NCBI RefSeq assembly: GCF_018623055.1
Contig: NZ_CP076019.1
Coordinates: forward strand, 1,674,001 to 1,738,000
Direction: 5' to 3'
Length of the DNA: 64,000 bases
Origin: Halorubrum sp. 2020YC2
GTDB taxonomy: Archaea > Halobacteriota > Halobacteria > Halobacteriales > Haloferacaceae
The notes under the pieces were generated by a model that had not been told where the DNA came from, did no database searches, and saw only the letters and a program-made list of their open reading frames with translations. Shown here piece after piece: positions 2,354 to 52,614 of this stretch. The stretch's first letter is position 1. Each line of letters opens with the position of its first letter. The position numbers and the translations under genes are program-made.

Positions 2354-2456
2354 TCCGTCGGCTTTAGCTCGGACGTGAGCGGAGTGAGTAGTTATAAGCG
2401 GGCGAGCGGTGCTGCCGTCGTCGTTTATAAGTGATATCGGACCGCCGAGAACTCCT

Positions 2457-2477
2457 CCGAGGCCCCGGTCGCTCGGT
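2457..2477 (+). repeat. Degenerate 5' copy of the dispersed repeat
   Basis: About 17 of 21 bases match the head of the dispersed repeat family (CCGAGGCCCCGGTCGCTCGG here against CCGAAGCCCCAGCCGCTCGG at 30527). Like the other heads it follows a TATA box (TTTATAA at 2424-2430) by about 33 bp and is itself followed by the TATA box of the full copy (2477-2482). The rest of 2354-2505 holds no gene; a further TTATAA lies at 2392-2397. Confidence 0.55.
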
Positions 2478-2505
2478 TATAAGCTGTTGAGAGCGGATCG
2501 ACGAC

Positions 2506-2772
2506 GAACACCGCCAAAGCCCCAGCCGCGAGGAGGGCGTACGCTCGCTGCGGTCCTCGCTCGGTCGCTCACTCCATTCGCTCCCTCGCTGTGGTCCTTA
2601 CTTCGCCTACGCCCTCCTCGCGGCTGCCCCTTCGAGTCCCGCCCCGCCCCGCACCGCCCAGCACGGCACCTCATCCCTCCCCAGCCTCGTCGCGGCCGCC
2701 CCTGGCGGCCGCGACTCCCTCGCGCGTGCTGTCTCGCGGCCGCCAAGGGCGGCCGCTCGCAGGCACGCGCCG
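2506..2772 (+). repeat. Dispersed structured repeat, copy A
   Basis: First of three full copies in the window (others at 23249-23513 minus and 30589-30832). The conserved head AAAGCCCCAGCCG starts at 2516, 37 bp after a TTATAA box (2477-2482). Visible hairpins: a 17-bp perfect inverted repeat (2525-2541 with 2608-2624), a 12-bp stem with a 3-nt loop (2689-2700 with 2704-2715), and a terminal nested hairpin with outer arms GCGCGTGC and GCACGCGC. No convincing ORF lies inside. The long predicted proteins here are frame shadows of GC-rich DNA. Stem differences between copies are compensatory, so an RNA structure is likely. Confidence 0.8.
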
Positions 2773-2918
2773 CCGCGTGTATTTATAATCGACGTTGCTG
2801 CCGCTCACGATCAGTTATAAATCGTATCGCCTCCGTCGACGGGGTCCCTCGACGCACCCCAACCCGGTAACACCCGTGTCCGCGCCGATTCAAGTCCCTG
2901 CGCGGCGTAGACGGGTGT
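2773..2918. other. Gene-free segment with two TATA-like boxes
   Basis: Between repeat copy A and the VOC pseudogene I see only two TTATAA elements (2782-2788 and 2815-2820) and no ORF worth calling. They may drive transcripts from either side of the repeat. There is no clear TATA box 27 bp before the ATG at 2919. Confidence 0.5.
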
Positions 2919-23139: not shown

Positions 23140-23248
23140 GGGACGGCGGGACCGACTTCGGGAGTGTGCGAATCGCGGCTGCGGGAGCGATACGGTATTT
23201 AAATATTCGCGAGCGGCGGCGACAATCGCTTATAAAGAATGGTGCGGC
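23140..23248. other. Gene-free flank of repeat copy B
   Basis: After the pirin stop there is no ORF; TTATAA at 23230-23235 and an AT-rich TATTTAAATATT at 23195-23206 mark the 3' flank of repeat copy B. Confidence 0.5.
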
Positions 23249-23513
23249 GGCGCGTGCCTGCGAGCGGCCGCCCTCGGCGGCCGCGAGACAGCACGCGCGA
23301 GGGAGTCGGCGGTCCGGAGCGAAGCGGAGGACCGCCGACGAGGCTGGGGAGGCGTGAGGCTGCGGTGCTGTGCGGGGCGGGACTCAAAGGGGCAGCCGTG
23401 AGGCGGGCGCAGGCGACGTAAGGACCACAGGGAAGGAGCGAGCAGCGCGAGCGACCGACCGAGGACCGCAACGAGCGTGCGCCCGCCTCACGGCTGGGGC
23501 TTTGAAGATGTCC
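23249..23513 (-). repeat. Dispersed structured repeat, copy B
   Basis: Full copy on the minus strand. The head AAAGCCCCAGCCG is at 23503-23491; the TATA box TTTATAA (minus strand, 23537-23543) lies 38 bp upstream, the same spacing as in copy A. Stem I is 23478-23494 with 23395-23411 (17 bp perfect), stem II is 23329-23339 with 23305-23315 (11 bp, sequence unlike copies A and C), and stem III is the nested GCGCGTGC/GCACGCGC hairpin at the left end. No ORF inside is credible. Confidence 0.8.
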
Positions 23514-23680
23514 GCCATCGATCCGTCAGTAGCAGTTTATAAACAAGCGGTTGTGACTTCGGAGAGGTACCCCGTAGAGTCGCTGTTTGTTTATAAACGA
23601 CCAACAGAGACGACCAATTCAACTTATAAATCCTCATCGAGTCGGAAAGGCTCAACTCCCGGCCCGACGAACCCCGAGCC
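23514..23680. other. TATA-rich upstream region of repeat copy B
   Basis: Read on the minus strand this stretch has three TTTATAA-type boxes (23537-23543, 23590-23598, 23622-23629) and a degenerate repeat head (about 12 of 16 bases, AAGTCACAACCGCTTG, near 23545-23562). The box at 23622-23629 reads TTATAA on the plus strand as well and may serve the gene at 23681. Confidence 0.5.
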
Positions 23681-30487: not shown

Positions 30488-30555
30488 TTTATAACTGAGT
30501 GATCACGGAGTCGAAAAGAACGCCACCGAAGCCCCAGCCGCTCGGCTGTACGCTA
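30488..30555 (+). repeat. Truncated head copy of the dispersed repeat with own TATA box
   Basis: TTTATAA at 30488-30494 is followed after 38 bp by GAAGCCCCAGCCGCTCGGCT (30528-30547), the first part of the repeat family, which then stops. Immediately after comes the TATA box of full copy C (30559-30565). Confidence 0.65.
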
Positions 30556-30588: not shown

Positions 30589-30832
30589 CCGAAGCCCCAG
30601 CCGCGAGGCGGGCGCACACTCGCTGCGCTCCTCGGTCGCTCACTGCGTTCGCTCCCTGCGGTGCTTGCGTCGTCTGCGCCCGCCTCGCGACTGCCCCTTC
30701 GATTCCCGCCCCGCACCGCTCCGCACAGCACCTCACGCCTCCCCAGCCTCGTCAGTCACCTCCGCTTCGCTCCGGCGACTGACTCCCTCGCGCGTGCGGT
30801 TCGCGGCCTGCGGCCGCTCACCGGCACGCGCC
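30589..30832 (+). repeat. Dispersed structured repeat, copy C
   Basis: Full copy with the head GAAGCCCCAGCCGCGAGG from 30591 and a TTTATAA box at 30559-30565, about 30 bp before the head. Stem I is 30600-30616 with 30675-30691 (16 of 17 paired), stem II is 30751-30757 with 30777-30783 plus inner pairs, and stem III is the nested GCGCGTGC/GCACGCGC hairpin with the inner GCGGCC-TGC-GGCCGC. The segment is gene-free. 30833-30929 holds only an AT-rich TTATTTAAAAG near 30876. Confidence 0.8.
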
Positions 30833-37367: not shown

Positions 37368-38450
37368 ATGGATGAGGACGCGGTGAAAGACTACGTCGAT
37401 CACGCCCAAGCGACTATTGAGGCGGCCCCACAGATGGATGAGGCCAACACGAAAGCCGCCGTTCTACGTGACTTTCTCGACCTTCTCGACTGGACGATCC
37501 CCGATAACACTCAACTGGAATACTCTGTCGAAGCTTTCGGGAAGACCTACAAGGTAGATTACGCCCTGATTCTGGACGGTACCCCCGTTGCCTTCCTCGA
37601 AGCCAAAGGCGTAGACACGTCGCTTACGGACAAGCACAGAAAGAAGTTGGAAGCCTATCTCAAGAACGAGGATGTAAACTTGGGTATCCTCACGAACGGA
37701 GAGGAATACGAGTTCTATCGGCGGGAAGTGGTTGACACCAAAGTCAACGTGAATACACTCGGGAGAACGGGCCTTCAAAGTCTTCCTGATAGGGTTACAA
37801 CACTAAGAGCATTCACCAAAGACGCGATCCAGAGCAACGAGTGGGAAAAGATTCTCAACCGAATCAAGGAACTCCGCGAAGCACGGACGACACTTGAAAG
37901 AGAGAAGGATGATTTAGCGACAGAAGTTGCGGAACTGTTCTCTGAGCGGATTTCGGGTAAGATCACTCCTCAGACGGAGTCGCAAGCAAAGGAGATGATT
38001 GACCGTCTAATCGATGATATTGAGAACGAAATCAATAGTGACGGAGATTCTCCTGAGCGAGACGATATAGAGGAATCACCTCAAGCTATAGTTGAGAAAG
38101 ATCAGACGAACTCTAACGGAGCTTATCAGATTACGTTCTTTGATGGAGAGAACGAGCTTGCGGAGTTCGGTGCGTCAAAACAGGCCGACGTGTTTATTGA
38201 GGCTGTGGATTACCTCGTCAGAAATCATAACCTCATCTCGGAACTTGAGCCACTTCCGTACATTCCGGGACGGACGCGCCCTATCATACATGACGAGAAC
38301 AGCTTTGAGGGAAAGCAGATGAAGCAACCTCGGGAACTTGCTGGCGGATATTATCTTGAAGTCAACCTAAGCTCTGGACAGAAGCAGAGGGAAATTGGTC
38401 GTTTAGTAGAAGTGTGTGACTGCTCTGTTCAGTTCGGCGGTGGTTGGTAG
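37368..38450 (+). CDS. HSDR_N-type restriction endonuclease-like protein
   Basis: 360 residues. The N-terminal 150 residues resemble the nuclease domain of type I HsdR: TKAAVLRDFLDLLDWTI, then YKVDYALILDGTPVAFLEAKG, a PD-(D/E)xK core with Asp near residue 63 and ExK near 74-76, then NLGILTNGEEYEFYRRE. A helical linker (KILNRIKELREARTTLE) follows, and the C-terminal 110 residues (AYQITFFDGENELAEFG) are a separate small domain of unknown role. It lacks a helicase. AT-rich GATATGATAA near 37336-37345 is about 27 bp before the ATG. It opens the cargo region and may be a modification-dependent or phage-directed nuclease. Confidence 0.8.
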   Translation: MDEDAVKDYVDHAQATIEAAPQMDEANTKAAVLRDFLDLLDWTIPDNTQLEYSVEAFGKTYKVDYALILDGTPVAFLEAKGVDTSLTDKHRKKLEAYLKNEDVNLGILTNGEEYEFYRREVVDTKVNVNTLGRTGLQSLPDRVTTLRAFTKDAIQSNEWEKILNRIKELREARTTLEREKDDLATEVAELFSERISGKITPQTESQAKEMIDRLIDDIENEINSDGDSPERDDIEESPQAIVEKDQTNSNGAYQITFFDGENELAEFGASKQADVFIEAVDYLVRNHNLISELEPLPYIPGRTRPIIHDENSFEGKQMKQPRELAGGYYLEVNLSSGQKQREIGRLVEVCDCSVQFGGGW

Positions 38451-38534
38451 TAAGTTCAGCTACACTGTCTGTAGCTTTACTGCCAATTCGTAAGTGATCG
38501 AAAACTGGATATGTCCCTGTCATAATGATTTGCC

Positions 38535-39995
38535 GTGGCAACGCTTCGCAATAAGACTACCAGTAAGGGTGTGATTGTTAGATGGAAGCCATATCCAGAT
38601 CACAATCGCCCAAGCACATATCAGGTCAAAACTAGGGCTGTATCATTTCTTGCGGAACTTGGATTTAGTGTTCCTAATCAAGGGGATGAGGTAGATGTTC
38701 CATGGGACATTTGCCGTCCACTCCGCGTATTAGGTGATCTACATTTCAAATCAGATAGTACTGGAGAAGTAGAGACAGATGATATTGGAGAAATAAACGA
38801 AGATTTTGCTCAAGATCTTTCAGAGTCCCAACGCGAAGATCTTAGACGATATATTGCTACACATGACAATTATCAAAAGCAGAGTTCCACACTCGCTGGT
38901 GAAATATCTTCATTACCAGAAGGCGATGAAGAAAATGATGAGAGTACTGATCTATATAAAAACCAGTTACAGGAGGGGGATCGATTCGTAGCCACAATAG
39001 ATAGAATCAGCAACTCAGGAAATGGCATTGTCAACACAAATGAATCACACATCAATATTGGTCCTGTAAAACCGAATGCTGACGGGACAAAAGTAGGGGT
39101 GGAAATGTATTCTGGTGCTTCTGGTATCTGTATAACGGAAAGCGTTCGAGCCGAGAACTATACTTCGAACTTTTGGAGGGCAAATCGCCATCAGTTCCAC
39201 AAATTTGGAAAAGAGACTATTGACTCGGCGATGTTCTGCGAGGATTGTGGCTCAGTCGCACTGAAATCAGGAGAGAAATGGAAGTGTGGTACCTGTGGTA
39301 GTGAATTCCCACCTGACAACGCCGGTGGTAGTAGTGAAACTATAGACCTCGGTATAGCTGAATCCTCGGACCCGGGAGAAGTAATTGAAGGAGTAGCGGT
39401 TGTGTATGACTCTGAGAATAACTTCTGTTCAAGAAGAGAAAAAAGAATAAAAATCGTAGGAGATCAAGATCTTGGTACGGAGGTTGATGTAGAGATACAA
39501 TCTCGGCGAGATGGTTACGTAGTGGCCAAAGTGGTTGATTTATCCAATGAAAACAAGAATTCACCTCCAGAGGATACCACGACACAGAAATCTCTTGATG
39601 AACTAAGGAAAGAAGCTGAAGAAGCGGCTACTGATAACGTTTCAGCCACCGTAAGTAAATCGAGTTCTACGACAACTCGTTATTCACGGTCACAAGAAAT
39701 CAAGGATTATGTAAAAGCTCGTGCTGATGGTGTCTGCGAGGGTTGTAATGAACCAGCGCCATTCACCGACAAAAGCGGCGATCCATATCTCCAAGTTCAC
39801 CACATCCACGAACTAAGTGATGGAGGTTCTGACGCACCAGAGAATGTAGTAGCACTTTGCCCAAACTGTCACTATAGGGTTCATCACGGACAGGATGGTG
39901 AGAGTTATAACCAAGAATTGTCGTCTGAATCTGATGAGCAGAATAATGATGGGGGTTTGTCCTCCTTACTTGAGGAAATATCTGAAAGCAATTAG
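38535..39995 (+). CDS. TRAM / zinc-ribbon / HNH endonuclease
   Basis: 486 residues starting GTG 38535 (MATLRNKTTSKGVIVRW). An N-terminal stretch of unknown fold is followed by a TRAM-like OB domain (GDRFVATIDRISNSGNGIV...SGASGIC, about residues 145-205), a zinc ribbon (CEDCG...CGTCG, about 233-257), a possible second TRAM-like repeat (GEVIEGVAVVYDSENNFC, about 275-330), and a C-terminal HNH nuclease: CEGCNEPAPF...LQVHHIHELSDGGSD...NVVALCPNCHYRVHHG (about 400-455). HNH plus RNA/DNA-binding modules suggests a restriction factor of the type IV or solitary kind. It is AT-rich compared with the chromosome and sits between two restriction loci. Confidence 0.82.
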   Translation: MATLRNKTTSKGVIVRWKPYPDHNRPSTYQVKTRAVSFLAELGFSVPNQGDEVDVPWDICRPLRVLGDLHFKSDSTGEVETDDIGEINEDFAQDLSESQREDLRRYIATHDNYQKQSSTLAGEISSLPEGDEENDESTDLYKNQLQEGDRFVATIDRISNSGNGIVNTNESHINIGPVKPNADGTKVGVEMYSGASGICITESVRAENYTSNFWRANRHQFHKFGKETIDSAMFCEDCGSVALKSGEKWKCGTCGSEFPPDNAGGSSETIDLGIAESSDPGEVIEGVAVVYDSENNFCSRREKRIKIVGDQDLGTEVDVEIQSRRDGYVVAKVVDLSNENKNSPPEDTTTQKSLDELRKEAEEAATDNVSATVSKSSSTTTRYSRSQEIKDYVKARADGVCEGCNEPAPFTDKSGDPYLQVHHIHELSDGGSDAPENVVALCPNCHYRVHHGQDGESYNQELSSESDEQNNDGGLSSLLEEISESN

Positions 39996-40104
39996 TCGTT
40001 TGAGGTGCCTCCATTAGTTCTTAGGTCTACTTTTTGTACCACTATCTCCTCCGACTATTACTCACACCACAGGAGATATGACCCCCTGAACACACTACTC
40101 CTCT

Positions 40105-41610
40105 ATGTCGCTGTCACTCCCCGACCTCGATTCTCACCTCTTCAAATGTGCCGACATAATTCGGGACGCCGTCGATCCAACCGACTACAAAGAGTTCATT
40201 CTCCCGCTCGTCTACTATAAGGCGATCTCCGACGAGTACGAGAAGCAATACCAAGAAAACGTTGAGAAGTACGGTGACGAAGACCTCGCCCGACGCCCGA
40301 AACTCTACGACGTTCCCGTTGTTCCCGAAGGCTACCTGTGGGAAGACCTCCGGAGCGTTAGCGACAACGTTGACCAAGCGCTGAACGAGGCTTTCGACGC
40401 CGTCACCGATGCGAACCCCGAGCTACAAGGCGTCTTCCGGGCCGACTACATCGACGCCGACGCCCTTGACGACGATCGCCTCGGGAAACTGGTCGAACAC
40501 CTCTCCACACACGACCTCGACCGAGACAGTATCCCGCCGGATATGCTCGGAGAGGCGTACATGGATCTCGTCCGTCAGTTTGCCGAAGAAGAAGGGAAAT
40601 CGGGCGGCCAATTCTTCACGCCGCCGCATATTGTCAACCTGTGTGTGCGGCTCGTAGACGACTTTGAGGACGGTCAAACGTTCCACGACCCAACGGTCGG
40701 ATCCGGGGGAATGCTCATTGAGGCGGCTCGCTACTACCGTGAGGAGCAAGGTGGTGACCCCGAGAAGCTCCGGTTCTCCGGACAAGAGATTAATCCGGAC
40801 ATTGCCGCGATCGCGAAGATGAACCTCTCCATCCACGGATTGAATGGGACCATCGAGCGTGAGGACTCTCTCTCGAAGCCAGCGTTTACCAATGAGGACG
40901 AAAACGAACTCACTCGGTTCGATCGGGTTCTCGCCAACTTCCCCTTCTCGGCGGATTGGGCGAAAGACGAACTACAGGATGACCCTTACAATCGATTCGA
41001 TTGGCACGAGAAGCTTCCCCGAGCAGACCGTGGCGATTATGCCTTTATTCAGCACATCGCAAAACAACTGAAGCGTCCCGAAGATGATGGGAACGGCGGG
41101 AAAGCGGCCATCGTTATCCCTCACGGCGTTCTGTTCCGGAAACACGAGAGTCGGTATCGAAAGTCGATGTTGGAGAACGACATGGTGGAGGCGATTGTCG
41201 GCCTCCCCGAAAACCTATTCCAGAACAATTCGATCCCTTCGGCTGTCCTCGTGCTGAATACGAACAAGCCAGAGGATCGGGAGAACGAAGTACAGTTCGT
41301 TCACGCCGCTGATGAGGACTTCTACACCGAACTCTCGAATCAAAACGAACTAACCGAGGACGGGCTTGACCACATTATTGAGAACTTCCGTGGGTGGTCA
41401 ACCGAAGAAAGGGTGAGCCGAACTGTCTCATTGGACGAGATCCGGGAGAACGATTATAATCTCAATATTGCGCTCTACGTGGACACGACTGAGCCTGAAG
41501 AAGACATAGATGTAAAAGAAGAACTAGCTAAATTACGGGAGTTACAATCTGAGCGTGATGAGATTGAGGCGACGATGACAGAGCATATGGAGGCGCTGGA
41601 TTATGAGTAA
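40105..41610 (+). CDS. hsdM: Type I restriction-modification, methyltransferase subunit HsdM
   Basis: 501 residues. The N-terminal helical domain is SHLFKCADIIRDAVDPTDYKEFILPLVYYK. Motif I reads FFTPPHIVNLCVRLVDDF...FHDPTVGSGGMLIEAARYY, and motif IV reads DRVLANFPFSADW. The second position of the N-P-P-F/Y motif is Phe here, a variant to be noted. The C-terminus carries a coiled coil (ELAKLRELQSERDEIEATM) for HsdS contact. hsdS starts inside its end with an 8-bp overlap. The complex methylates adenine at a bipartite target. Confidence 0.95.
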   Translation: MSLSLPDLDSHLFKCADIIRDAVDPTDYKEFILPLVYYKAISDEYEKQYQENVEKYGDEDLARRPKLYDVPVVPEGYLWEDLRSVSDNVDQALNEAFDAVTDANPELQGVFRADYIDADALDDDRLGKLVEHLSTHDLDRDSIPPDMLGEAYMDLVRQFAEEEGKSGGQFFTPPHIVNLCVRLVDDFEDGQTFHDPTVGSGGMLIEAARYYREEQGGDPEKLRFSGQEINPDIAAIAKMNLSIHGLNGTIEREDSLSKPAFTNEDENELTRFDRVLANFPFSADWAKDELQDDPYNRFDWHEKLPRADRGDYAFIQHIAKQLKRPEDDGNGGKAAIVIPHGVLFRKHESRYRKSMLENDMVEAIVGLPENLFQNNSIPSAVLVLNTNKPEDRENEVQFVHAADEDFYTELSNQNELTEDGLDHIIENFRGWSTEERVSRTVSLDEIRENDYNLNIALYVDTTEPEEDIDVKEELAKLRELQSERDEIEATMTEHMEALDYE

Positions 41611-42982
41611 GGATACGACGTTGGACGAGTTTGCTGAAACAGATTCCGATTCCTCTGAACCAGAGGCAGAGGATTTAGTCCGGAAAACGGTCTGCGGTAT
41701 TCCACCACAAGACTGGACTGTAGCAAGATTAGGCGAATTGGTTCATGTAGTCAGCGGGAACTCACTACCGACAGAGTATCAGAATGGAAATGAAAGCGGG
41801 CATCCCGTTTACAAAGTTTCCGACATGAATGCTACTGGAAATCAGAAATACGTCTCTGACAGCTCAAACCGACTCTCAAAAGAAAATTTAGAAAAAATAA
41901 ATCATACGCTCTATCCAGAAGGAACGACAATTCTCCCTAAGGTTGGAGCCGCACTGTTGACAAACAAGCGCCGTCTGCTTACCGAGCCTTCTTCATTTGA
42001 TAATAATGTGATGGGTTGGGTTCCTGATGAAATCAATCCAGAGTTCCTCTACTATATATCGTGTGTCATTGACATGGAGGCAGTCGCACAGAAAGGGGCA
42101 GTACCTTCCATCAGTAAGGCGATTGCCAAATCCCTCAAAGTCCCCTCTCCACCGCTCCCTGAACAGCGCAAGATCGCCACCGTACTCTACACGGTTGACC
42201 AGGCGATCGAGAAGACAGAGGAAATCGTAGAAGAATATCAAACTATCCTATCAGGCCTTATTGAGGATATAGCTACGACAGGTATTGGTAATGAGAATTT
42301 AGTCGAACATAAAGTGCCAATGCTTCCAGAAAGGTGGGAAATCCCAAATCATTGGAGATTAGAATTTTTGGAAGATATAACGACTCTAATTACAGACGGC
42401 GCCCATCAGACACCGACGTATGTAGAAAGTGGAATCCCATTTTTAAAAGTGGAAAATATCAAACAAGATAGAATCGATTGGGGTTCAGTAGCCAGAATAC
42501 CTGAAGAAGAGCATGAGAAGCTAACCAATCGAAGTAATCCAACAGAAGGAGATGTTCTATTATCCAAGAATGGAACTATTGGTATCTCAAAAGTAGTTGA
42601 TTGGGATAACGAATTCAGCCATTTCGTTAGTCTCGCGCTGATACGTCCCAATAAGAGTACAATTCATCCAGATTATTTGGCTACACTATTAGAATCACGA
42701 ATCTGTATGAGACAGGCAAATGCCCGGTCAAAGACAGGAACTGTAACAAACTTACACCTTGAGGAAATTAAGAAACTGTCAATACCAGTACCGCCGCTAT
42801 CTGAACAAAAGGAGATTCTTAAGAAAGTTTCAGTTGTTGAGGACGGCCTCCATTCGGAAAGTAGGTATCTAAATCAGCTACGACGTGTTAAACAGGGTCT
42901 CATGCGAGACCTTCTCTCTGGAACAGTCAGAACAACCAACACTAACATAGAGGTGCCCGACAAAATCACCCAACATGGTTAG
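41603..42982 (+). CDS. hsdS: Type I restriction-modification, specificity subunit HsdS
   Basis: 459 residues with two target-recognition domains. The first (about 15-185) ends in PLPEQRKIATVLYTVDQAIEKTEEIV, the conserved spacer helix; the second (about 235-420) ends in PLSEQKEILKKVSVVEDGLHSESRYLNQLRRVKQGLMRDLLSG, the distal helix. Each TRD begins like WTVARLGELVHVVSG or WRLEFLEDITTLITDG. The two domains differ, so the target should be an asymmetric bipartite sequence. It overlaps hsdM and hsdR by 8 bp each. Confidence 0.94.
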   Translation: MSKDTTLDEFAETDSDSSEPEAEDLVRKTVCGIPPQDWTVARLGELVHVVSGNSLPTEYQNGNESGHPVYKVSDMNATGNQKYVSDSSNRLSKENLEKINHTLYPEGTTILPKVGAALLTNKRRLLTEPSSFDNNVMGWVPDEINPEFLYYISCVIDMEAVAQKGAVPSISKAIAKSLKVPSPPLPEQRKIATVLYTVDQAIEKTEEIVEEYQTILSGLIEDIATTGIGNENLVEHKVPMLPERWEIPNHWRLEFLEDITTLITDGAHQTPTYVESGIPFLKVENIKQDRIDWGSVARIPEEEHEKLTNRSNPTEGDVLLSKNGTIGISKVVDWDNEFSHFVSLALIRPNKSTIHPDYLATLLESRICMRQANARSKTGTVTNLHLEEIKKLSIPVPPLSEQKEILKKVSVVEDGLHSESRYLNQLRRVKQGLMRDLLSGTVRTTNTNIEVPDKITQHG

Positions 42983-45941
42983 CGTCCCCAACGAAGGCGG
43001 CGTCGAACGATCCCTCCTCTCATGGCTTGACGCCGTCGGTTGGGAAACACACGGGCAAGATGGAAGCCGGGGCGCAAACGTTCTCGACGGGAAGTACGAC
43101 CGCCGGAGTAACGAGGTCATCTACTGGAACCTCCTGAAAGAGCAAATAATTGAAATCAATGAGGAAATTACTGAGGACAACGCCGATCGGTTCCTCAATT
43201 CACTCCGTCGAGAGCTTGATTACGAGAATTTATTGGAAGGCAATCAGAACTTCCATGAACTTCTCACAAAGGGCAAAACCTTTGGAGTGGAGAATGCCCA
43301 CGGCGGGAACGACACGATCTACGTTGACCTGATCGACTTCGGTCCGAAGACCTTCTCAGAATCAAACCGATTCCACGCTGTCAATCAGTTCTCTGTCTCC
43401 CGAGGAGCAACCATTCGCCCGGACGTGACGCTGTTCGTCAACGGGATCCCCCTCGTCACGATGGAGTTGAAGTCTCTGGCACAAGATAACGACTACTACG
43501 ACGCCATAAACGACCTCCAACAGTACGAGGAAGACGTCCCCCGGATGTTTATTCCCGGACTGTTCAACGTCGCCGCCGACACCATGGAGTTCCGATACGG
43601 CTCTGTGGGTGCCCCTGACGAGTTCTACGAGTTGTGGAACGAGGCCCCCGAACAGTACGCCAACGAGGACAACCAGATGAAACAGGCTGTCCAAGCCTTG
43701 TGTAATCCGGCGACTCTTGTGGACGTCCTCAAGAACTTCGTCTTCTTCGAGAAGCGACCGGGTGGCGACGCCAAGATCATCCCGAGATACACCCAATACT
43801 ACGCCGTCAACAGAATCCTCGACAGAGTCCGTGAGGGGGTTCACGATCGAGGACTTATCTGGCACACCCAAGGCTCAGGGAAGTCGTTCACTATGCTCTA
43901 TGCGGCTGAGAACCTTCTCTCTCGAAGCGAGGTAGTTCGCAACCCGCAAGTCTTCATCATCGTCGATACGGACAAGCTCAACAGCCAAATGCGGGACCAG
44001 CTTTCGAACCTCTCGCTGGCCCAATGGACAGAGGCCAAATCCATCGATCATCTCCAAGAACTGATCGAGGAAGGGAGTAGCCAACTGATTCTCACGACTA
44101 TTCAGAAGTTCCAAGACGTAGAGCCGGACACGCAAGGGAACGACGAAGTGATCGTCATGTCCGACGAGGCCCACCGATTCATGGAGGCCGACCTCGGAAG
44201 CCGTCTCGACGCCGCACTCCCCAATAGTTCACATTTCGGCTTCACCGGGACTCCCGTGCGGGAAGGGGAACGAGAGAAGGACCGAAACACATTCACCGAG
44301 TTCAGTCCCGAAGGTGAGGACTATCTCCACCGGTACTCGGTCAAACAGGGGATCGAAGACGGCCTCATTCTCCCGGTCTACTTCACTCTCCGACACGAGA
44401 TGGAGTGGAAAGTATCCGAAGACGCCCTTGACGAGAAGTTCGAACACGAGTTCCGTGGGATGACGACCGAGGAGAAGCGAGAGTTCATCAGTAAAAACGT
44501 CACCAGCCGGACCATGGCCGAACTCGAGCCTCGGGTTGATCGGGCCGTCGAAGAGATAGACGCCCATTATCAGGAGAAGGTCGCCCCCAACGGCTGGAAA
44601 GGAATGGTCGTTACACCGAGCCGGCGGTCAGCCGCCATGTACGGGGAACGATTGAGAGAGCGTCGGGGAGAGGACGCCGTCGAAGTCCTCTTTACATCCA
44701 CCAACGACGATCCCGACCTCATTCGGAAGTTCCACACGGACCCCGAGGAGCGTGACAGTATCGTTGAAAGCTTCAAGGAACCCGAGGAGAATCCGAGCCT
44801 TCTCGTCGTTCACAATATGCTCCTTACGGGCTTCGACGCTCCGATCCTGAAGACGATGTATCTCGATCGGAACCTGACAGACCACAATCTCCTCCAAGCT
44901 ATTGCCCGGACAAATCGGCCAGCCGATGGGAAACAGAACGGGGAGATCGTAGACTTTCAAGGGGTCTTTGAGAACATCGACGACGCTCTCGACTACGACG
45001 CCGAGACGAAGGCATACGCGGCTCGTGACGAGGAAGAGCTATTCGACGATCTCGTTGACCAGTTGGAGACGGTCATGGACATTTTCGACGGGATCCCGAA
45101 AGACGATTCCCAAGAGGCTACAAACGCCGCAGTCTCCCGGATCAGTAAGCACCCTGAACGCCGCGAATTCAAACAGGGCTTCCGAGGGCTCCAGAACCTC
45201 TACGAATCCGTGGCCCCGGACGGTCGGTTGATTAAAGAAGGGATTCAGGACCAGTACAAGTGGTTGAGTCGGATTCAGGTAGCCTTTGAGCGAACTACTT
45301 CCGGGAAAGAGGCCCCTGAAGACGATATGCGGGAGAAGACACGCCAGATAATCAACGAGAACGTGGATGTGGGTGAGATCCGCGACGATTTCCCGACGTA
45401 CAAATTGGGAGAAGAATTCCTTGAAGACGCAGAAGGGCTGGACAATCCCGGCGTGAAAGCCTCTCAGATAGCTCACGCAACTCAGGATCACCTCCATCCG
45501 AGAACGGGTCAGAATCCCCGCTACCAGCGTTTAAGCGAACGGGTGACAGAGATCGTTGAACGCTGGCAAGGCGGTGACGTGGCTGATCCGGAAGCGGTTG
45601 AGGCACTCAAATCAGTTGAAGAAGAAGTCATTGAAGTTGAGAAAGAAGCTGGTGATGACTCCGACGAGCGTGCCAAATACGCCATTGAGAATCACCTAAC
45701 AGAGGAGCTTGACGAGGAATTTGAACGGGGAAATGCCGCCGACATAGCAGATTCCATTGTCGATCAGTTTGAGGACCGCGTGGATCGTGCTTATTCAGGG
45801 TGGGAGACTAACAAGGCGACCGAACAAGATGTGGAGGAGCTGATCCTCGACGTGGTCGCGCTTGAATACAACCGGCCCGACCTGATCGATGACCCACTCG
45901 TAGACGCGATCCGGAATTACCTCGTGAACAATTATGCCTGA
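42975..45941 (+). CDS. hsdR: Type I restriction-modification, endonuclease subunit HsdR
   Basis: 988 residues, the usual length. Nuclease core: IRPDVTLFVNGIPLVTMELKS (Asp near 147, ExK near 158-160). Motor: HTQGSGKSFTMLYAA (Walker A, near 297), SDEAHRFME (DEAH box), FGFTGTPV (motif III), and HNMLLTGFDAPILKTMYLDR then LLQAIARTNRPADGKQNG (motifs V and VI). The C-terminal 250 residues are helical for complex assembly. ATP-driven translocation and cleavage of unmodified DNA are expected. It is bracketed by 8-bp overlaps with hsdS and the metallopeptidase gene. Confidence 0.95.
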   Translation: MVSVPNEGGVERSLLSWLDAVGWETHGQDGSRGANVLDGKYDRRSNEVIYWNLLKEQIIEINEEITEDNADRFLNSLRRELDYENLLEGNQNFHELLTKGKTFGVENAHGGNDTIYVDLIDFGPKTFSESNRFHAVNQFSVSRGATIRPDVTLFVNGIPLVTMELKSLAQDNDYYDAINDLQQYEEDVPRMFIPGLFNVAADTMEFRYGSVGAPDEFYELWNEAPEQYANEDNQMKQAVQALCNPATLVDVLKNFVFFEKRPGGDAKIIPRYTQYYAVNRILDRVREGVHDRGLIWHTQGSGKSFTMLYAAENLLSRSEVVRNPQVFIIVDTDKLNSQMRDQLSNLSLAQWTEAKSIDHLQELIEEGSSQLILTTIQKFQDVEPDTQGNDEVIVMSDEAHRFMEADLGSRLDAALPNSSHFGFTGTPVREGEREKDRNTFTEFSPEGEDYLHRYSVKQGIEDGLILPVYFTLRHEMEWKVSEDALDEKFEHEFRGMTTEEKREFISKNVTSRTMAELEPRVDRAVEEIDAHYQEKVAPNGWKGMVVTPSRRSAAMYGERLRERRGEDAVEVLFTSTNDDPDLIRKFHTDPEERDSIVESFKEPEENPSLLVVHNMLLTGFDAPILKTMYLDRNLTDHNLLQAIARTNRPADGKQNGEIVDFQGVFENIDDALDYDAETKAYAARDEEELFDDLVDQLETVMDIFDGIPKDDSQEATNAAVSRISKHPERREFKQGFRGLQNLYESVAPDGRLIKEGIQDQYKWLSRIQVAFERTTSGKEAPEDDMREKTRQIINENVDVGEIRDDFPTYKLGEEFLEDAEGLDNPGVKASQIAHATQDHLHPRTGQNPRYQRLSERVTEIVERWQGGDVADPEAVEALKSVEEEVIEVEKEAGDDSDERAKYAIENHLTEELDEEFERGNAADIADSIVDQFEDRVDRAYSGWETNKATEQDVEELILDVVALEYNRPDLIDDPLVDAIRNYLVNNYA

Positions 45942-46656
45942 AACGGCACCCCGGAAGGTCACACTTCAAGGGGAGAACGTCGCCTATGAGGTACGCCAGA
46001 GCGACGAGGCAACGCAACCACGGATAGATTTGGATTTACATGGAGTTCGGGTCGTTCTTCCAGATGACTCCACCACGGACCCCGAGGAGCTTCTCAAGGA
46101 GAACGCCGTGTGGGTTCTGGAAAAGAAGCGAAAGTACGACGCCTATCGTGAGCAAATCCCTGATCGGGAATTCGAAGAAGGAGAACGATTTCCGTATCTC
46201 GGGGAACAGTACGAAATTGTCGTGGAACAACGTCCCGCTTCACAGGTAGTCGAGAACGAATTTCGACTGGCAAAGCACCATGTGGAACAGACATCTATCA
46301 AGCGGGCTTTGGAGACTCTTTATCGGCGGAAAGCTCGGGAACTCTTTGAAAACCGGGCTAATCACTTCTCGGAGGAGATAGGAGTCGAGTACGACAAGAT
46401 CGAGGTCAGAAATCAACGGACGAAGTGGGGATCGTGTTCCACCACAGGCACTCTCGGTTTGAACTGGCGATTGATGATGGCTCCATCAGATATTGTCGAT
46501 TACGTCGTTGTTCACGAGCTGGCCCATCTCCGTGAACAGAATCATACTGACGAGTTCTGGTCGCTGGTCGCAGAACACGATCCTGAGTACACAGAACACT
46601 CTGAGTGGTTAGAAGATAACAGCACATCTCTCATCTTTTCAACGGATGACCTATAG
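45934..46656 (+). CDS. YgjP/DUF45-type (M48-like) metallopeptidase coupled to hsdR
   Basis: 240 residues. The C-terminal half is the YgjP-like peptidase domain: VEYDKIEVRNQRTKWGSCSTTGTLGLNWRL and the zinc motif VVHELAHLREQNHTDEFW (HExxH with a third His, about residues 192-209). The N-terminal half is a beta-rich domain typical of the family. It overlaps hsdR by 8 bp and so belongs to the R-M operon. Genes of this family are recurrent neighbours of type I systems, but their role in restriction is unknown; proteolytic control of the HsdR subunit is a natural guess. Confidence 0.88.
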   Translation: MPETAPRKVTLQGENVAYEVRQSDEATQPRIDLDLHGVRVVLPDDSTTDPEELLKENAVWVLEKKRKYDAYREQIPDREFEEGERFPYLGEQYEIVVEQRPASQVVENEFRLAKHHVEQTSIKRALETLYRRKARELFENRANHFSEEIGVEYDKIEVRNQRTKWGSCSTTGTLGLNWRLMMAPSDIVDYVVVHELAHLREQNHTDEFWSLVAEHDPEYTEHSEWLEDNSTSLIFSTDDL

Positions 46657-46679
46657 GTAGTAGTATATTTAGAGTCCAA

Positions 46680-47420
46680 TCATTTTGGCTTAACAATCTC
46701 GATTGGAAGCGGCTCTGTCTTTGAGCGATCCAGTTCTGGATCTTCCGGAAGTGTGGTTCGTTCCTCCTCAGATAGTTGAGCAGTATAGGCTAAAACCAGT
46801 GAATCAAGCACGTCGTCTTTTCCATTCTTGCTAACGCGTCGTGCCCAAGACGGTGGTTCAACAAGCGTCTCAATTACACTTTCATACAGCGCTTCAAGTG
46901 ATTCATCTTCGTCAAAGAGAAACTCCTTACGCTCACTGAGTCCCTCCTCGGTACTCTTCTTGTGTTCCATGGCGGACCCATTAAGAGCGGCAAAACAGAC
47001 TTCAGGATGTGATTCCCGTACTCTTCCTGTTGCCTCACTGAATTCGTCGAACAGCTCATCTACTTCACGAATACGAAGACAGATCGACCAAGCTTGATTG
47101 GAAATACTGAATCCGAATTCCTCGTTGATTTCTTTCGCCTCTGTGAGCGTCTTAGCGTAGACTGCCTCTCGGACAGGAGTTGAGAAGACGCTATTGTGAC
47201 GAGTTGGCTCGAGTAACTCCACCGCACGTTCGTCACAGGTTCGCTTCCCGTTTTTACTCAGGCCAATTGGGATATCGATGAGAATTTGATCTGCGTCTTT
47301 GTAATTGCTCCAGACACTGAGAATTGATGGGAACAGGTCGAAGTCATGATTACCATCGTCCCGTAGAATGATACCAAGCCATCCGTTTCCGGCCCAATCC
47401 AGACCAAGATACTCTGCCAT
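46680..47420 (-). CDS. DUF429 family protein (RNase H-like fold)
   Basis: Start chosen at ATG 47420 (MAEYLGLDWAGNGWLG, 246 aa); a GTG at 47429 would add three residues. The N-terminal YLGLDWAGNGWLGIIL is the first strand and Asp of an RNase H-like fold, followed by QILIDIPIGLSKNGKRTCDERAVELL (second Asp) and, near the end, KDDVLDSLVLAYTAQ (third acidic site), the DUF429 pattern of putative nucleases. Function unproven. It is convergent with the R-M operon, 23 bp away, and could be a further defence gene. Confidence 0.82.
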   Translation of the reverse strand: MAEYLGLDWAGNGWLGIILRDDGNHDFDLFPSILSVWSNYKDADQILIDIPIGLSKNGKRTCDERAVELLEPTRHNSVFSTPVREAVYAKTLTEAKEINEEFGFSISNQAWSICLRIREVDELFDEFSEATGRVRESHPEVCFAALNGSAMEHKKSTEEGLSERKEFLFDEDESLEALYESVIETLVEPPSWARRVSKNGKDDVLDSLVLAYTAQLSEEERTTLPEDPELDRSKTEPLPIEIVKPK

Positions 47421-47531
47421 GTTCTCCACCCTATTGGTGAGCCGATATCACTGTTTCCGATAAGAATCACCCATACAGTCGAAGTTAGAAAGAGAGACTG
47501 ATCTCCGGACGTTTCTCTTATACAGAATAGT

Positions 47532-47740
47532 CATTCGTCTTTAGTTAAGCCCAATGGTAATATTCAGATATAAATTATCTGTTCAGTATTAGCAACAAGG
47601 GAATTCACAGCTCAGACTCCCGCGTTGCTGATATCGAACGGTAAGTATCTCTCGAAAATGTTATTTTCATCCCATAGCCGGCGTCAGAGTGCCGAATCTG
47701 GCCAGAAGTGAGGCTGTTGAGTATTAACTAAAGACGAATG
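47532..47740. repeat. 209-bp segment with 17-bp perfect terminal inverted repeats (MITE-like)
   Basis: The ends are CATTCGTCTTTAGTTAA (47532-47548) and its exact reverse complement (47724-47740). The interior is AT-rich and codes for nothing. I see no target-site duplication directly outside the ends. The structure fits a non-autonomous transposon or a long-range hairpin. The rest of 47421-48688 contains the tRNA-Ala, a TTTTATAAG box near 48495 and the 25-bp repeat, but no credible protein gene. Confidence 0.7.
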
Positions 47741-48025
47741 GCCACTTGTGGTTCCCTCTGAGTGGGCGGTTCTCTCGTAACTCGGGCACCGGAACGCAGG
47801 AGACCGTCAACGATGGGGATCTTCCCGGTGGGCAGACAATCGTTCCTTTCAAAAAAAAACCGCGACATGGTCCGCCCGCGACCCCATTACCGAATCAACT
47901 GTAGGCGGCAATCCCGTCCACGAGACGGATTTAAATGGCATTCTCGGGTGATTCCCGAATACAAATATTGATGTTTTAGGCCTTCTAAAGGATGAATACA
48001 GCCATTCAGCGGCTTCCAAAAATGA

Positions 48026-48097
48026 TGGACTCGCGGGGATTTGAACCCCGGGCCTCTTCCTTGCGAAGGAAGCGATCTGCCACTGATCTACGAGCCC
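48026..48097 (-). tRNA. tRNA-Ala (CGC)
   Basis: 72 nt on the minus strand. Acceptor GGGCTCG pairs with CGAGTCC with the G3:U70 wobble that identifies alanine tRNAs, and A73 is the discriminator. The anticodon arm CTTCC-TTCGCAA-GGAAG gives anticodon CGC; the T arm is CCGGGGTTCAAATCCCCG-like. No intron, no encoded CCA. It lies inside the integrated element. CTTACTTATTCG upstream (48131-48142) may be its promoter. Confidence 0.93.
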
Positions 48098-48546
48098 TTA
48101 CGACAAGCCAATCGCCGTTCGTACTTGTACCTTACTTATTCGTCTTTGTGGGTAGAGAACTAACTGTTCTTAACCCCCTCTTGTCAATCTATTCTCACCC
48201 CCCTCCAACTGTGTGATGGTGCGAAAAACGCCAGACGAGGATACGACAGTACCTTCGAGATCCCAATAGAGTGTATAAATAAAATCGTTGGTGAAACTTC
48301 TATTGAGACTTTGCCTATATCTCATCTATCCTTGTCCACACGTGGGTCTCACGACACTCTGACGCGCGTTTTACAGATACAGAAGACCCACTATGTCTCA
48401 TAGACCAAGTCGTCTATGTCGCACACACGCGGCGTGTACACGAGAGGTATAGACTGACCAGAAGGCCATCTGACTCAAGTGGCTATGAGTATTCTTTTAT
48501 AAGTACTGTTAACGCAGAATTCATTCATCCCATTGCTGTGTTGCGG

Positions 48547-48571
48547 TTCTCGCAACATAACACAGTGAGGT
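48547..48571 (+). repeat. 25-bp repeat, copy 1 (3' of the GIY-YIG-like gene)
   Basis: Identical over 25 bp to 51947-51971, with similarity continuing to TACAATAA about 25 bp further. Here it forms the right arm of a hairpin (TGTTGCG GTTCT CGCAACA, 48539-48557). The two copies bracket the GIY-YIG-like and primase-like genes. Confidence 0.85.
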
Positions 48572-48688
48572 TGTTGGGGTACTACAATAACAAGTACAGA
48601 CAAGAGAGAGTCAATCACTACTCGGAGCAGTATCTCATTGGTGGTTCACCGGGCAACACGTAGTTGGAGTGTGTCAAGAATGGTGGAG

Positions 48689-50074
48689 CTATGTTGAAGA
48701 TGGATCAAACTCAAACTGCTTCTGGTTCGCTGGTGCCCCATTTGGAACCTCATGGTGATTGAGCAGTTGATGAGGGTTCGTTTGGTAGGCTAACCCGATC
48801 AACAACGCCTCGACTTCAGCCAAGTAGGCTGGATAGCCGTACGGCCCCGTGTACTTTTCTGGATCCCATGCTCGGATCCACAGATAGGTTTGCTCTTTGA
48901 GTTGGTGTGTTCCCTGTTCGAATAGCTCGCTCGCCCAACTGAGTTTCTTCGAATCCACGCCAAAGACAGTATCTGATAGCTCTCCGACGTGCCAGTAACT
49001 CCCATCGCCCCATCGAGCGAAGCTTCGTGTTCCACTTCGGTCCTTCGCGATCTCTTCGAAGTTCGCACTCAACTCGTTCTTTTTGCCATACGCCTCTGCT
49101 TTGCCGATATATCGAGGGATAATTTGCTCGGGAGAAGGCGGGTCGGACTCAAGCTGGTACATAACATAGAGTAATCCATTAGGACCATCCTTCACTCCGG
49201 TTCTGTGAACACATCGTTTTCCTTCCTGGCGGATTCGAGTATCAATCGCTTCAGAACGCTTGAGGACCGTAGAAGAACCGACCTCAGTGAGTTCAACGAC
49301 GAGATCGTCGTCCGTCTCGAAGAGTGGTATTGGATCCTCACCTTCGGGGTCATGAATCTCTTTGTGGATAGTTTGTTCAACCCACTCATGCCAAAGATCT
49401 GCTTTACTCGTGCCGCTGACGCCGTCTCCCGCGTTATCAGCGGCTACCACCGCCTCTTCGTTTGGTGAATCGTTTTCTAAATCAACCCAATCGGGGCCTA
49501 CCTTCCCCATCTCATGGGCGACTCTATTTGGAACAAAATCCCGGTTTGCGAACACCCGATTGAATTGGGGATGTGAGTGGACAAGCCCGACGGTCTTTGC
49601 CTCAAGCTCCTGTCGATATGTGGAATATCCGTACGGCCCCGTCTCAATCTCATTCACATCGACGACCCACACATACAGGGGTGAATTTGCTTTCTCGAAT
49701 ACCGTCGCGATATGATCGTATTTTCCGTAACTTCCCCACGAGCCATCATCCTTCCACTCAGAGGTTGGGAGAGAGTTACGGAGCTTTCTGAAGTGGTCCA
49801 GTAGTCTACTGGAGACCTGACTCGTTTCTCCGATGTAGACCGGGATAATATCAGACGAGCCGCTCACAGGCTCGTCAAGGACATACAGTAGGTACAGATA
49901 ATCTCCGTTCCCTCGTCCCAAGCGATACGAGTCGTATTCATCGGTCATCTCCAGTTGCGATCCGGACTCGTCAACCATGGGAACCGGATCGGGTGTGACT
50001 GGAGAGGTAATGTCGGTGAGTATCGTCTCAGAAACCCACTGATCCCACAACTCATTTTTGCTCTCTCTGTCCAT
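48689..50074 (-). CDS. Tandem GIY-YIG-like domain protein
   Basis: 461 residues made of two related halves of about 190-220 residues. Each half has an LW-x2-WV-x2-TI helix (residues 9 and 227), a YL-LYV / LLYVMY strand followed by IIPVYIGETS or IIPRYIGKAE (GIY-YIG core), and TGPYGYSTYRQELEAKTVGL or TGPYGYPAYLAEVEALLIGL with the expected catalytic Glu. The first half keeps an Arg after the core (SSRLLDHF); the second has KKNELSANF and may be inactive. Nuclease or DNA-end binding is likely; no other domain. It is transcribed after the primase-like gene with a 72-bp gap. Confidence 0.7.
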   Translation of the reverse strand: MDRESKNELWDQWVSETILTDITSPVTPDPVPMVDESGSQLEMTDEYDSYRLGRGNGDYLYLLYVLDEPVSGSSDIIPVYIGETSQVSSRLLDHFRKLRNSLPTSEWKDDGSWGSYGKYDHIATVFEKANSPLYVWVVDVNEIETGPYGYSTYRQELEAKTVGLVHSHPQFNRVFANRDFVPNRVAHEMGKVGPDWVDLENDSPNEEAVVAADNAGDGVSGTSKADLWHEWVEQTIHKEIHDPEGEDPIPLFETDDDLVVELTEVGSSTVLKRSEAIDTRIRQEGKRCVHRTGVKDGPNGLLYVMYQLESDPPSPEQIIPRYIGKAEAYGKKNELSANFEEIAKDRSGTRSFARWGDGSYWHVGELSDTVFGVDSKKLSWASELFEQGTHQLKEQTYLWIRAWDPEKYTGPYGYPAYLAEVEALLIGLAYQTNPHQLLNHHEVPNGAPANQKQFEFDPSST

Positions 50075-50146
50075 TAGTCGGGTATTAGAGGTTGTACGGA
50101 TAAGCGGTCATGATATTAATTTCACAGAGATAATTGAATACCTGAT

Positions 50147-51805
50147 TTAGTTCGGCTTCGGTGGAATCGAGACATGTATGTTATCATAATACTCAATAAT
50201 CTCTTTGAGATTTTCCCATGTCCTCTTCGGTTTGAATTGCGCCCCATACTGTTCTTCAAGCCACTCCCATGCGAGGGGCCAACCCCCAATCTGGAGAAGA
50301 CGGTTCGCTACGTTTGCGACCTCTGTGTAGCCTAAGAGTTGAATTCCGTCATCTTCGGCCAGACGTTGTAGCCGTGAGGCTTTCGTCTCAGACTTTCCGC
50401 TTGATTGTGATTGAGAGTAAGTTTGTTGTCGTTTGTTATCTGTGAAAGGCTTTGATTCACTTTTACCAGCCTTCCCAACATCGTACCCCTCATCTTTCAG
50501 GTAATCAAGAGCGGCTTGACGGCTTCCGTCCTCCCCGGTGAGAGAGTTTCCAATGTCGGAGGCTTGGAACGAATCTACACTGAAAATGACCGACTCATTG
50601 CTCTTGCCCCCGATAATCACCACATTATCTCCCGGTTCGTAGTCCCATTTTTTGTAGTCAGCTTTCGAGAGCTGAAGTGGCGCGTGTACATGATCTTTGG
50701 TGAATTCTTCACCAGCACACCCTCTGGCTCCGTAGAAGTATGATGGAATCAGAGCGTGGATCGGCTCGCTACGGTTTCCAATCGTTTTGTTTCGTCGAGC
50801 AAACGGAGTTCCTTTGATTTCCACGACCGCAACACTCCGAGAACCACCTGTGGCAAGAGCATACGGCGAGAACTCTTTGTCGTTGTATTGGGCCCACTTT
50901 GGGACGTTCCCGTTCTGGTCTGGATACTCTTCCTTCTCTATTAGTGGAGTCTCGATATATGGTTCAGCTGACTCGAACGAGAGAACCGACTTCTCACCAT
51001 CGAGGTTCCGAAACAAGCTAAACGGGTCATTTTGAACAGTCTGACTTGAATCTACAGTTAGGGATGGTTGGGAGAGGAATACGTGTTGAAGCACGTCTAC
51101 ATACGACTCGGGCGTGTCATCCGCACCCGACTGAACTTTACCAGCGAGAACGGCGTTGTCCCATTCTCCCTCAAATTCTATTTTTCTGACTCCCGTTTTT
51201 GAGTGTTCTACACCCGGAATTCGGAATAATGGTTTGGAAGAGTAGATCCCGCAATCAAACTCCGCACCAGTTCTTTTACAGTACGATTCGGCCAATTCTT
51301 TCAGCTCTCCCCGGCCATGTTCCTTTACGAAACGAGGAACATGAATGTGAATCGAACGGTTTCCAGAAAAATACCGTTTACACGTTTGAAACGGTATTTC
51401 AAGATATTCTTCGACAAATACCTCGAACCATCTCATGAGCTTGTCCGGGCCAACTTCGTTTAGCGCGTCGCTCTCGATATAGATGGGGTAGAGAACACGA
51501 TCGTCTACTTCGCACTCCTCCTGGAGTTCAGTGGCAATCGATGTGTACTCTCCATCGATTTGGTATCCGCTTTCGAGGTTCTGTTGGCGGTCATACTGAT
51601 CACGAGTAAGCACGTAGACCGCACTTGCTGTCTCTACACCATCGGGTATCGGCTCAAAGATCGTCCGGAGTGTTGGAGCCCGCTTCGGTCCTTCTCCTTC
51701 AGCAAATCCGTACTGAACACACGGTATGTCGTTCCAGTTCTCGGGAACTGCGTTATTCGCCGCACCATTCTTGGACTGTTCAATCGCTGTATTATCAGTT
51801 GACAT
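50147..51805 (-). CDS. Archaeo-eukaryotic primase-like replication protein
   Basis: 552 residues. The N-terminal part resembles the AEP primase/polymerase catalytic core: YPIYIESDAL (residues 106-115, acidic metal site), RYFSGNRSIHIHVPRF (145-159, the SGxxxxH motif), and LFRIPGVEHSKTGVRKI (192-208, the R-PG-x-HxKTG motif). A middle beta-rich domain and a C-terminal helical domain (SRLQRLAEDDGIQLLGYTEVANV, ...WENLKEIIEYYDNIHV) follow. No helicase is fused. It is probably the replication initiator or primase of the element. Just upstream are the 25-bp repeat and a 24-bp satellite, which would suit an origin. Confidence 0.75.
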   Translation of the reverse strand: MSTDNTAIEQSKNGAANNAVPENWNDIPCVQYGFAEGEGPKRAPTLRTIFEPIPDGVETASAVYVLTRDQYDRQQNLESGYQIDGEYTSIATELQEECEVDDRVLYPIYIESDALNEVGPDKLMRWFEVFVEEYLEIPFQTCKRYFSGNRSIHIHVPRFVKEHGRGELKELAESYCKRTGAEFDCGIYSSKPLFRIPGVEHSKTGVRKIEFEGEWDNAVLAGKVQSGADDTPESYVDVLQHVFLSQPSLTVDSSQTVQNDPFSLFRNLDGEKSVLSFESAEPYIETPLIEKEEYPDQNGNVPKWAQYNDKEFSPYALATGGSRSVAVVEIKGTPFARRNKTIGNRSEPIHALIPSYFYGARGCAGEEFTKDHVHAPLQLSKADYKKWDYEPGDNVVIIGGKSNESVIFSVDSFQASDIGNSLTGEDGSRQAALDYLKDEGYDVGKAGKSESKPFTDNKRQQTYSQSQSSGKSETKASRLQRLAEDDGIQLLGYTEVANVANRLLQIGGWPLAWEWLEEQYGAQFKPKRTWENLKEIIEYYDNIHVSIPPKPN

Positions 51806-51946
51806 TTATGTACTGTTATCAGATATTTCCCGAATCTGTTAATACGACTTCTCGCTTCTACCGAACTCAGTTATACAGACTCACAGCAGAATTCTTTTAT
51901 ATATCTCTCTGAATTTCTGCCATCCTATCCCGCTACAGTCATGCGA

Positions 51947-51971
51947 TTCTCGCAACATAACACAGTGAGGT
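51947..51971 (+). repeat. 25-bp repeat, copy 2 (5' of the primase-like gene)
   Basis: Exact copy of 48547-48571, here 142 bp upstream of the primase-like start and directly before a G-run (TGGCGGGGGG) and the 24-bp satellite. Confidence 0.85.
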
Positions 51972-52038
51972 GGCGGGGGGTAGTACAATAAGAGAAAGAA
52001 CGGTTAACCAGCAGAGACGGCATAGTAACAACTCATTG

Positions 52039-52160
52039 CTGTTGCTATTGTTGCTGTTGTTGCTGATGCTGTTGTTGCTGTTGTTGCTGATGCTGTTGTT
52101 GCTGTTGTTGCTGATGCTGTTGTTGCTGTTGTTGCTGATGCTGTTGTTGCTGTTGCTGTT
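52039..52160 (+). repeat. 24-bp satellite of TTG/CTG triplets (possible iterons)
   Basis: A unit starting CTGATGCTGTTGTTGCTG repeats every 24 bp at 52063, 52087, 52111 and 52135, the last one slightly changed; the flanks continue the triplet pattern. It lies between the primase-like gene and a long gene-free region, and is followed by GTTAACAAC. Possible origin iterons, or slippage-prone simple sequence. An apparent poly-Leu ORF over it is rejected. Confidence 0.85.
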
Positions 52161-52614
52161 AACAACTGTTTTTAATGAGGGGTGTTCTCCTTTACAACTT
52201 CTCTACTAAAGTTGCTGTAATGTACTCAACAGGGATACCATAAGGGACCCCTGTGAGACTATTAGCACACCCCCTGTCCCCACGTCCTCCCTGAGCGATT
52301 TCACGTGTGAGGTGGGCCAAGGGTCGTAGACGGTGGGGGAGCTTCACCACGGGTCCAGCAAGCCTCTTAGAATTGATTGTGATTCTATCCGGAACATTCG
52401 ATATTGGATTAGTACAGTTGAACTGCCTTGAGATCCGCTTATGATGACTCGTTTACAGAGTGAGCTACATCTCCGAGCGAATTCCTGTAGATTACACTGA
52501 GTCGGCTCACGGGCCGCTGGTGGAATTTGATTTCTAAACGTCCCACGGGTCACGTACAGCTATCAAGTTCTAAAGACTGCTCTCGCACGGCAGTCATTGA
52601 GCGAGAACCACACG
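52161..52614. other. Gene-free region downstream of the satellite
   Basis: No ORF here has coding character. The segment includes CACGTGTGAGGTGGG and GGTGGGGGAGCTTCACCACGGG patches (52302-52353) with partial inverted symmetry. With the satellite it forms an 800-bp noncoding block, the best place for an origin on this element. Confidence 0.4.

Follow-up and report, generated by a model that had tools for sequence, protein, structure and literature searches.

What are the three gene-free repeats in the window, the whole 64,000-nucleotide stretch of Halorubrum sp. 2020YC2 DNA analysed here, whose stems differ in sequence and still pair? The first-pass annotation had recognized copies A (2506-2772, plus strand), B (23249-23513, minus strand), and C (30589-30832, plus strand) and had proposed a promoter-led structured RNA or, in an alternative wording, a structured DNA element. 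All three copies were found between predicted genes: A between a DUF7260 gene and a VOC-like open reading frame (ORF), B between pirin and a secreted ORF, and C between 3HCDH-ECH and a semialdehyde dehydrogenase. As described, copies A and B show exactly three pair differences in stem I, each of them compensatory, and stem II, whose sequence varies among the three copies, spans 12, 11, and about 10 bp. In the head that had been ascribed to all three, copy C has GAAGCCCC rather than AAAGCCCC, with the matching change CTTCG opposite. The TTATAA box placed 30-38 bp before each copy lies approximately 25 bp upstream of copy C. In the family, TATA-like boxes are enriched at 33-38 bp upstream, and 70 of 110 copies have one at this fixed distance.

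The repeat is dispersed, as had been claimed, and belongs to a much larger family, with about 110-130 intergenic copies, including the three of the window, in this Halorubrum-type genome of 3.06 Mb. BLAST of the genome gave 40 scored copies. A covariance model of domain I, the core of the family, gave 128 matches (66 on the plus and 62 on the minus strand), which are spaced approximately at random with a median of 17 kb and of which 110 score above 60 bits. The conserved tail motif alone, with at most one mismatch, was found 138 times, compared with 0 for the reversed control. By gene calls from a simple home-made codon-usage script, which make the context counts approximate, none of the 110 strong copies lies inside a predicted gene; 55 lie in tandem, 37 in convergent, and 18 in divergent gaps, compared with 320:90:127 for the other gaps, and copies are twofold over-represented between convergent genes (p = 1e-4). 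Copies within tandem gene pairs showed no orientation bias (31 in the same direction, 24 opposite), and no convergent excess was observed in other genera; a terminator role was rejected on both grounds. This genomic context does not point to a leader or terminator acting in cis. A coding role was also rejected: mechanical ORFs span the copies and carry no coding signature under the home-made codon model. A search for a recurrent neighbour gene found none, the flanking-protein clusters being ordinary paralogues (ABC transporter, aminotransferase; 5 at most). Elsewhere in the window, an island of approximately 48% GC at 38000-58000 (surroundings approximately 70%) holds no repeats; a type I restriction-modification operon (HsdM, HsdS, HsdR, HNH; 37368-46656) is found in this island, with tRNA-His (58092-58165) at its right edge.

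Domain I forms one long hairpin, mostly of 113-123 nt, and was matched at 2514-2636 in copy A (plus strand; model R1, 116.7 bits), 23383-23505 in copy B (minus; 119.8 bits), and 30589-30703 in copy C (plus; 120.4 bits). Its foot, AAAGCCCC/GCCCCTTT, contains a helix of CAAAG with CTTTG, the second pair of which covaries between A-U and G-C, and a conserved CCC/CCC internal loop. In copy A, on the plus strand, the 5' side of the foot helix (AAAG, 2516-2519) faces the 3' side at 2630-2634 with one A.C pair, and is followed by the unpaired CCC (2520-2522) of the 3x3 internal loop, which is invariant in alignment A1. Above the foot stands a 19-bp stem, variable in sequence yet paired (stem I; 5' arm 2523-2541 and 3' arm 2608-2626), and the apex is conserved, with short helices broken by conserved mismatches. 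The 3' arm runs into a conserved C-tract tail, CCC-CTTCGAGT-CCC-G-CCCC (2627-2645), which together with 2520-2522 makes four G-tracts on the complementary strand. The head CCCC is present in 107 of 110 own copies and the C-rich tail AGTCCC-R-CCC in 100 of 110; two tracts of at least three C's follow the foot in 100/110 own copies and 27/33 elsewhere.

To this core Halorubrum adds two further hairpins and TATA-bearing units at both sides. Domain I is followed by an unstructured spacer, CTCCCCAGCC, stem II, CTCCCTCGC, and stem III. In copy A, stem II (GTCGCGGCCGCC/GGCGGCCGCGAC) occupies 2689-2715 and stem III (outer GCGCGTGC/GCACGCGC plus an inner hairpin) 2722-2770, both on the plus strand; spacer, stem II, and stem III together take up 23249-23382 (minus) in copy B and 30704-30832 (plus) in copy C. 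Copy A has a TTATAA box upstream at 2477-2482 and a second TATA box directly downstream at 2782-2789, and its whole unit, from the upstream TATA/head units through domains I-III to the downstream TATA, covers 2361-2862 (plus); that of copy B lies approximately at 23150-23650 (minus). The upstream unit of 51-57 bp consists of a TATA box and a truncated head and is tandem in some copies, with at least one extra head in 42 of 110 copies and a maximum of five; copy C has an extra one (TATA ... GAAGCCCCAGCCGCTCGG) at 30488-30550 (plus). Members of these upstream arrays are near-identical within an array and different between arrays, in the manner of a minisatellite (L090, L092; G000:C1:524514-524737; G000:C1:2771140-2771290). 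A CRISPR array was rejected, as the tandem head units are near-identical throughout and have no unique spacers. In other genera, domain I is solitary or forms tail-to-tail inverted pairs: a tail-to-tail partner, mostly 24-37 nt apart, was seen for 31 of 87 elements outside Halorubrum and for 0 of 179 within it, whereas the CTCCCCAGCC linker lies 3' of 155/179 elements inside Halorubrum and 16/87 outside.

Some copies carry inserts. Small two-hairpin cassettes (e.g., CAGCGAGAATC-GAA-GATTCTCTGGCA-GCCGGCG..CGCCGGC-GAC) occur in L014, L021, L024, L031, L096, L311, L316, and L342, where they sit within stem I, at the apex, or in the stretch separating stem II from stem III, and leave the host stem unbroken. 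A second type of approximately 80 nt (CCGGAAGACGTTCCTGCTCGC...GCGGGA) recurs across copies and species in the spacer that separates domain I from domain II (L045, L122, and the G178 copy L380:9944-10059).

The family was present in 23 of 23 genus genomes of our first relatives search. Across a sample of the order, domain I matches were obtained in 88/146 genomes and 38/56 genera, Haloarcula, Natrinema, Halorussus, Haladaptatus, Halobaculum, Halopiger, and Haloparvum among those with the motif, and the class as a whole conserves the foot, apex, and tail. Among the matches listed in a motif scan, 118 of 120 stretches came from Halobacteria; the two bacterial matches had no hairpin and were dismissed as chance. 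Copy number is patchy, as the tail motif found 138 times here occurs 164 times in G129, 5 times in G020 of the same genus, and 0 times in 22 of 59 haloarchaea. A phage origin was rejected: phage sequences gave no match to the element, and three motif matches on viral contigs had no hairpin and were attributed to chance. A plasmid-borne insertion sequence was also rejected; Halorubrum plasmids gave one partial match, and other haloarchaeal plasmids have one to three copies each. Rfam gave no match to the repeat at the gathering score, only two tRNAs in the window, and at E<5 only chance-level matches, in agreement with the earlier statement that no known family fits; nor did we find a description of the motif in the open-access literature. 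These repeats are a previously unlisted, new class-wide family of dispersed hairpin-forming DNA repeats of the haloarchaea.

A larger alignment, suggested in the first-pass annotation as a check on covariation, upheld the claim made from three copies. In 108 copies (107 distinct) fitted to the covariance model, a procedure that makes counts lean towards structure, 94.8% of cells at 36 pairs were paired, compared with 82.8% after shuffling and 32-43% after sliding, and double-change cells numbered 396, compared with 102 +/- 8 shuffled and 11-73 slid, with double changes at 24 of the 36 pairs. The 35 copies from other genera, fitted to the model with the same leaning, gave 283 double-change cells against 90 shuffled. 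Plain MAFFT alignment A1 of 48 copies had 97.5% of cells paired against 88.6% shuffled, and 137 double-change cells against 35. Elements found with the tail motif alone, without the model, have the same anatomy. A1 and these elements are independent of the model. These data support selection or maintenance acting on pairing and not on sequence. Much of the covariation, however, is whole-stem replacement between copies and not stepwise compensation, and one and the same stem II sequence can recur at as many as 8 unrelated loci. The covariation is significant, yet compatible with DNA-level causes.

The history of individual sites bears on how stems change. Several species carry copies at sites A, B, and C, which in other species are empty. 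Site A is filled in the own genome, G169, G178, G017, and G007; G064 has approximately 22 bp instead, and the site is also short in G165 and G171. Both A and B are missing from G064 as whole blocks of approximately 500 bp, flanking TATA units included. When filled and empty sites A and B were compared for the terminal inverted repeats and target-site duplication of a MITE, no duplication was visible, the flanks being too diverged for exact ends. Same-site copies have common adjacent flanks (e.g., the sequence directly after GGCACGCGCC at site C), and these flanks are mostly 80-95% identical. Median identity of the copies themselves was 0.736 at the same site, 0.738 at different sites, and 0.727 within the genome; stems are common across loci, and copies at the same site therefore resemble each other no more than arbitrary pairs of copies do. 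The simplest reading of the site data is that paired modules are exchanged between copies. One copy (L137, site C of G008) has collapsed to remnants of the head and stem III through a deletion between its two direct repeats of CCCCAGCC.

We give about an even chance to the reading that best accommodates these observations, in which the family is a non-autonomous REP/PATE/BOX-like dispersed hairpin repeat whose copies exchange sequence with one another and are thereby homogenised and held in the paired state; the wording "structured DNA element" was the better fit of the two originally offered. The family is probably a resident selfish element. A putative trans-acting enzyme would read the hairpin in its folded single-stranded form, most likely that of the G-rich strand, and would spread copies. 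Recombination via the conserved linkers would swap stems as ready-paired modules, unpaired variants would be lost by selection or overwritten by conversion, and the two processes together would generate the covariation. That copies have long kept both their positions and their pairing could equally mean that each of them has a function.

If the repeats are instead multicopy small-RNA genes of the G-rich strand, the downstream TATA would drive a transcript that reads stem III first, then stem II and stem I, on the strand opposite to the given one, a proposal that we regard as unlikely although several features agree with it. Non-canonical cells of stem I, read on the given strand, are A.C in 72 cases and G.U in 15 (23 versus 6 outside Halorubrum and 49 versus 9 within; combined p approximately 4e-10, or 7e-4 without the commonest pair), counts that are not fully independent because sequence is exchanged between copies. 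A.C on the given strand is G.U on its complement; thus the preference for G.U over A.C expected of an RNA is found only for the complementary strand, and the folding strand, if single, would be the G-rich one. Strand-biased deamination could mimic this asymmetry. The core is also the more structured on the G-rich strand, with z-scores of -6.8 versus -4.9 in Halorubrum and -5.9 versus -4.7 elsewhere, computed at 37 C under standard conditions and not in molar KCl. A second TATA lies within 60 bp 3' of stem III in 70/90 copies, mostly at 12-22 bp. However, G.U on the favoured strand makes up only approximately 2% of stem cells, compared with approximately 7% in tRNAs of the same loci, where ARAGORN's own rules favour such pairs, so that this strand, too, does not look obviously like an ordinary RNA gene. 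Inspection of the same core in other genera revealed no TATA boxes beside it, making the boxes a Halorubrum-only feature of the family; BRE scoring did not decide the promoter direction, and some haloarchaeal genomes have no copies. The box is palindromic and is accompanied by a second box downstream, and therefore fixes no direction itself. Judged from sequence, the boxes may serve the neighbour genes, the element, or both, and an RNA gene is possible, more likely so for the strand opposite to the one given.

Covariation without any selection on folding might be a mutational by-product of template-switch (quasipalindrome) correction combined with gene conversion. The stems do change wholesale, and they are nearly free of mismatches (495 Watson-Crick, 2 G.U, and 4 A.C cells in stem II). 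However, the mismatches that such correction should erase are conserved, namely the CCC/CCC loop and a U.U flanked by a pair that covaries between C-G and G-C; the fivefold excess of A.C over G.U would not be expected unless deamination is strand-biased; and foot, apex, and tail are conserved class-wide. We consider this explanation quite improbable.

The original proposal of RNAs of approximately 250 nt from the given, C-rich strand, each with its own TATA box, appears more doubtful still. T[TA]TA[AT]A was found within 60 bp upstream of domain I in 70/110 copies, compared with 45 of 700 control stretches (6%), mostly at -36/-38; a conserved GAACACC falls where the start site would be, and the fixed G.U pairs of the apical part are on the given strand. 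Against this, the apical part is no more structured than shuffles on either strand by z-score, the stem I asymmetry is opposite to expectation, the boxes are confined to Halorubrum and matched by a second box downstream, and whole stems are replaced.

The G-rich strand has four G-tracts, of which the tail supplies two and stem I joins the other two (GGGG-C-GGG-ACTCAAA-GGGG-[hairpin]-GGGG; in other genera, GGGTGGGACTGAAAGGGGC-[hairpin]-GGGG). It is a long shot that, in the molar-potassium cytoplasm, these tracts of RNA or extruded DNA build a quadruplex that stacks on the duplex stems and acts as a class-wide regulatory or recombination signal.

Returning to the dispersed hairpin repeat, we compared the family with known systems; it is of the broad REP/PATE/BOX kind and, by the tests made, a member of none. 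BOX and Correia/NEMIS-type repeats are modular and intergenic, vary in the number of internal units, and may carry promoters. The family is likewise modular and intergenic with variable internal units, but is archaeal, of unrelated sequence, and built of three distinct hairpins. REP, BIME, and REPIN sequences are repetitive extragenic palindromes of bacteria and go together with RAYT Y1 transposases (PMC2817692). The family resembles them in its high-copy intergenic palindromes and inverted pairs (here tail-to-tail, in other genera). In contrast to their 20-40 bp, it measures 115-265 bp with several hairpins, and in place of a short REP hairpin with a GTAG- or CGTC-type tag it has a domain I of approximately 115 nt with the foot AAAGCCCC/GCCCCTTT. 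We found no transposase or other partner gene for the element. Y1 transposases were present in 14 of 20 genomes and absent from the element-rich Halorubrum genomes G004 and G005, and no elements were found near the Y1 genes at 25 loci; a REP/RAYT partnership was therefore rejected, as the family neither needs Y1/RAYT nor flanks it.

PATE and SMR elements were described from Haloquadratum walsbyi (PMC3119063). Like them, the family is haloarchaeal, transposase-free, and palindrome-bearing, shows no visible target duplication, and has small hairpin inserts inside hairpins and core deletions between direct repeats (as in L137); the two-hairpin cassettes recall SMR elements, which target palindromes. 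It differs from PATE, compared by description, in that its stems covary and are exchanged between loci, and the IS605-type end link of PATE was not found for it beside Y1 genes. The halovirus HF2, whose host is Halorubrum, has promoter-carrying intergenic repeats of 56-58 bp (PMC8707807), which by description are like the upstream 51-57-bp TATA units; a hairpin domain, however, is not described in the HF2 repeats.

The family, which can exceed 100 copies per genome, occurs in many genera, and is unannotated, represents a sizeable gap in haloarchaeal annotation. In haloarchaea amenable to genetics, its copies offer ready markers, substrates for recombination, and promoter units that can be tested. 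For RNA discovery it is a caution, as strong covariation here is not by itself proof of a functional RNA. It is also an example from nature of secondary structure undergoing concerted evolution, in which addresses are inherited while their contents are apparently swapped as ready-paired modules.
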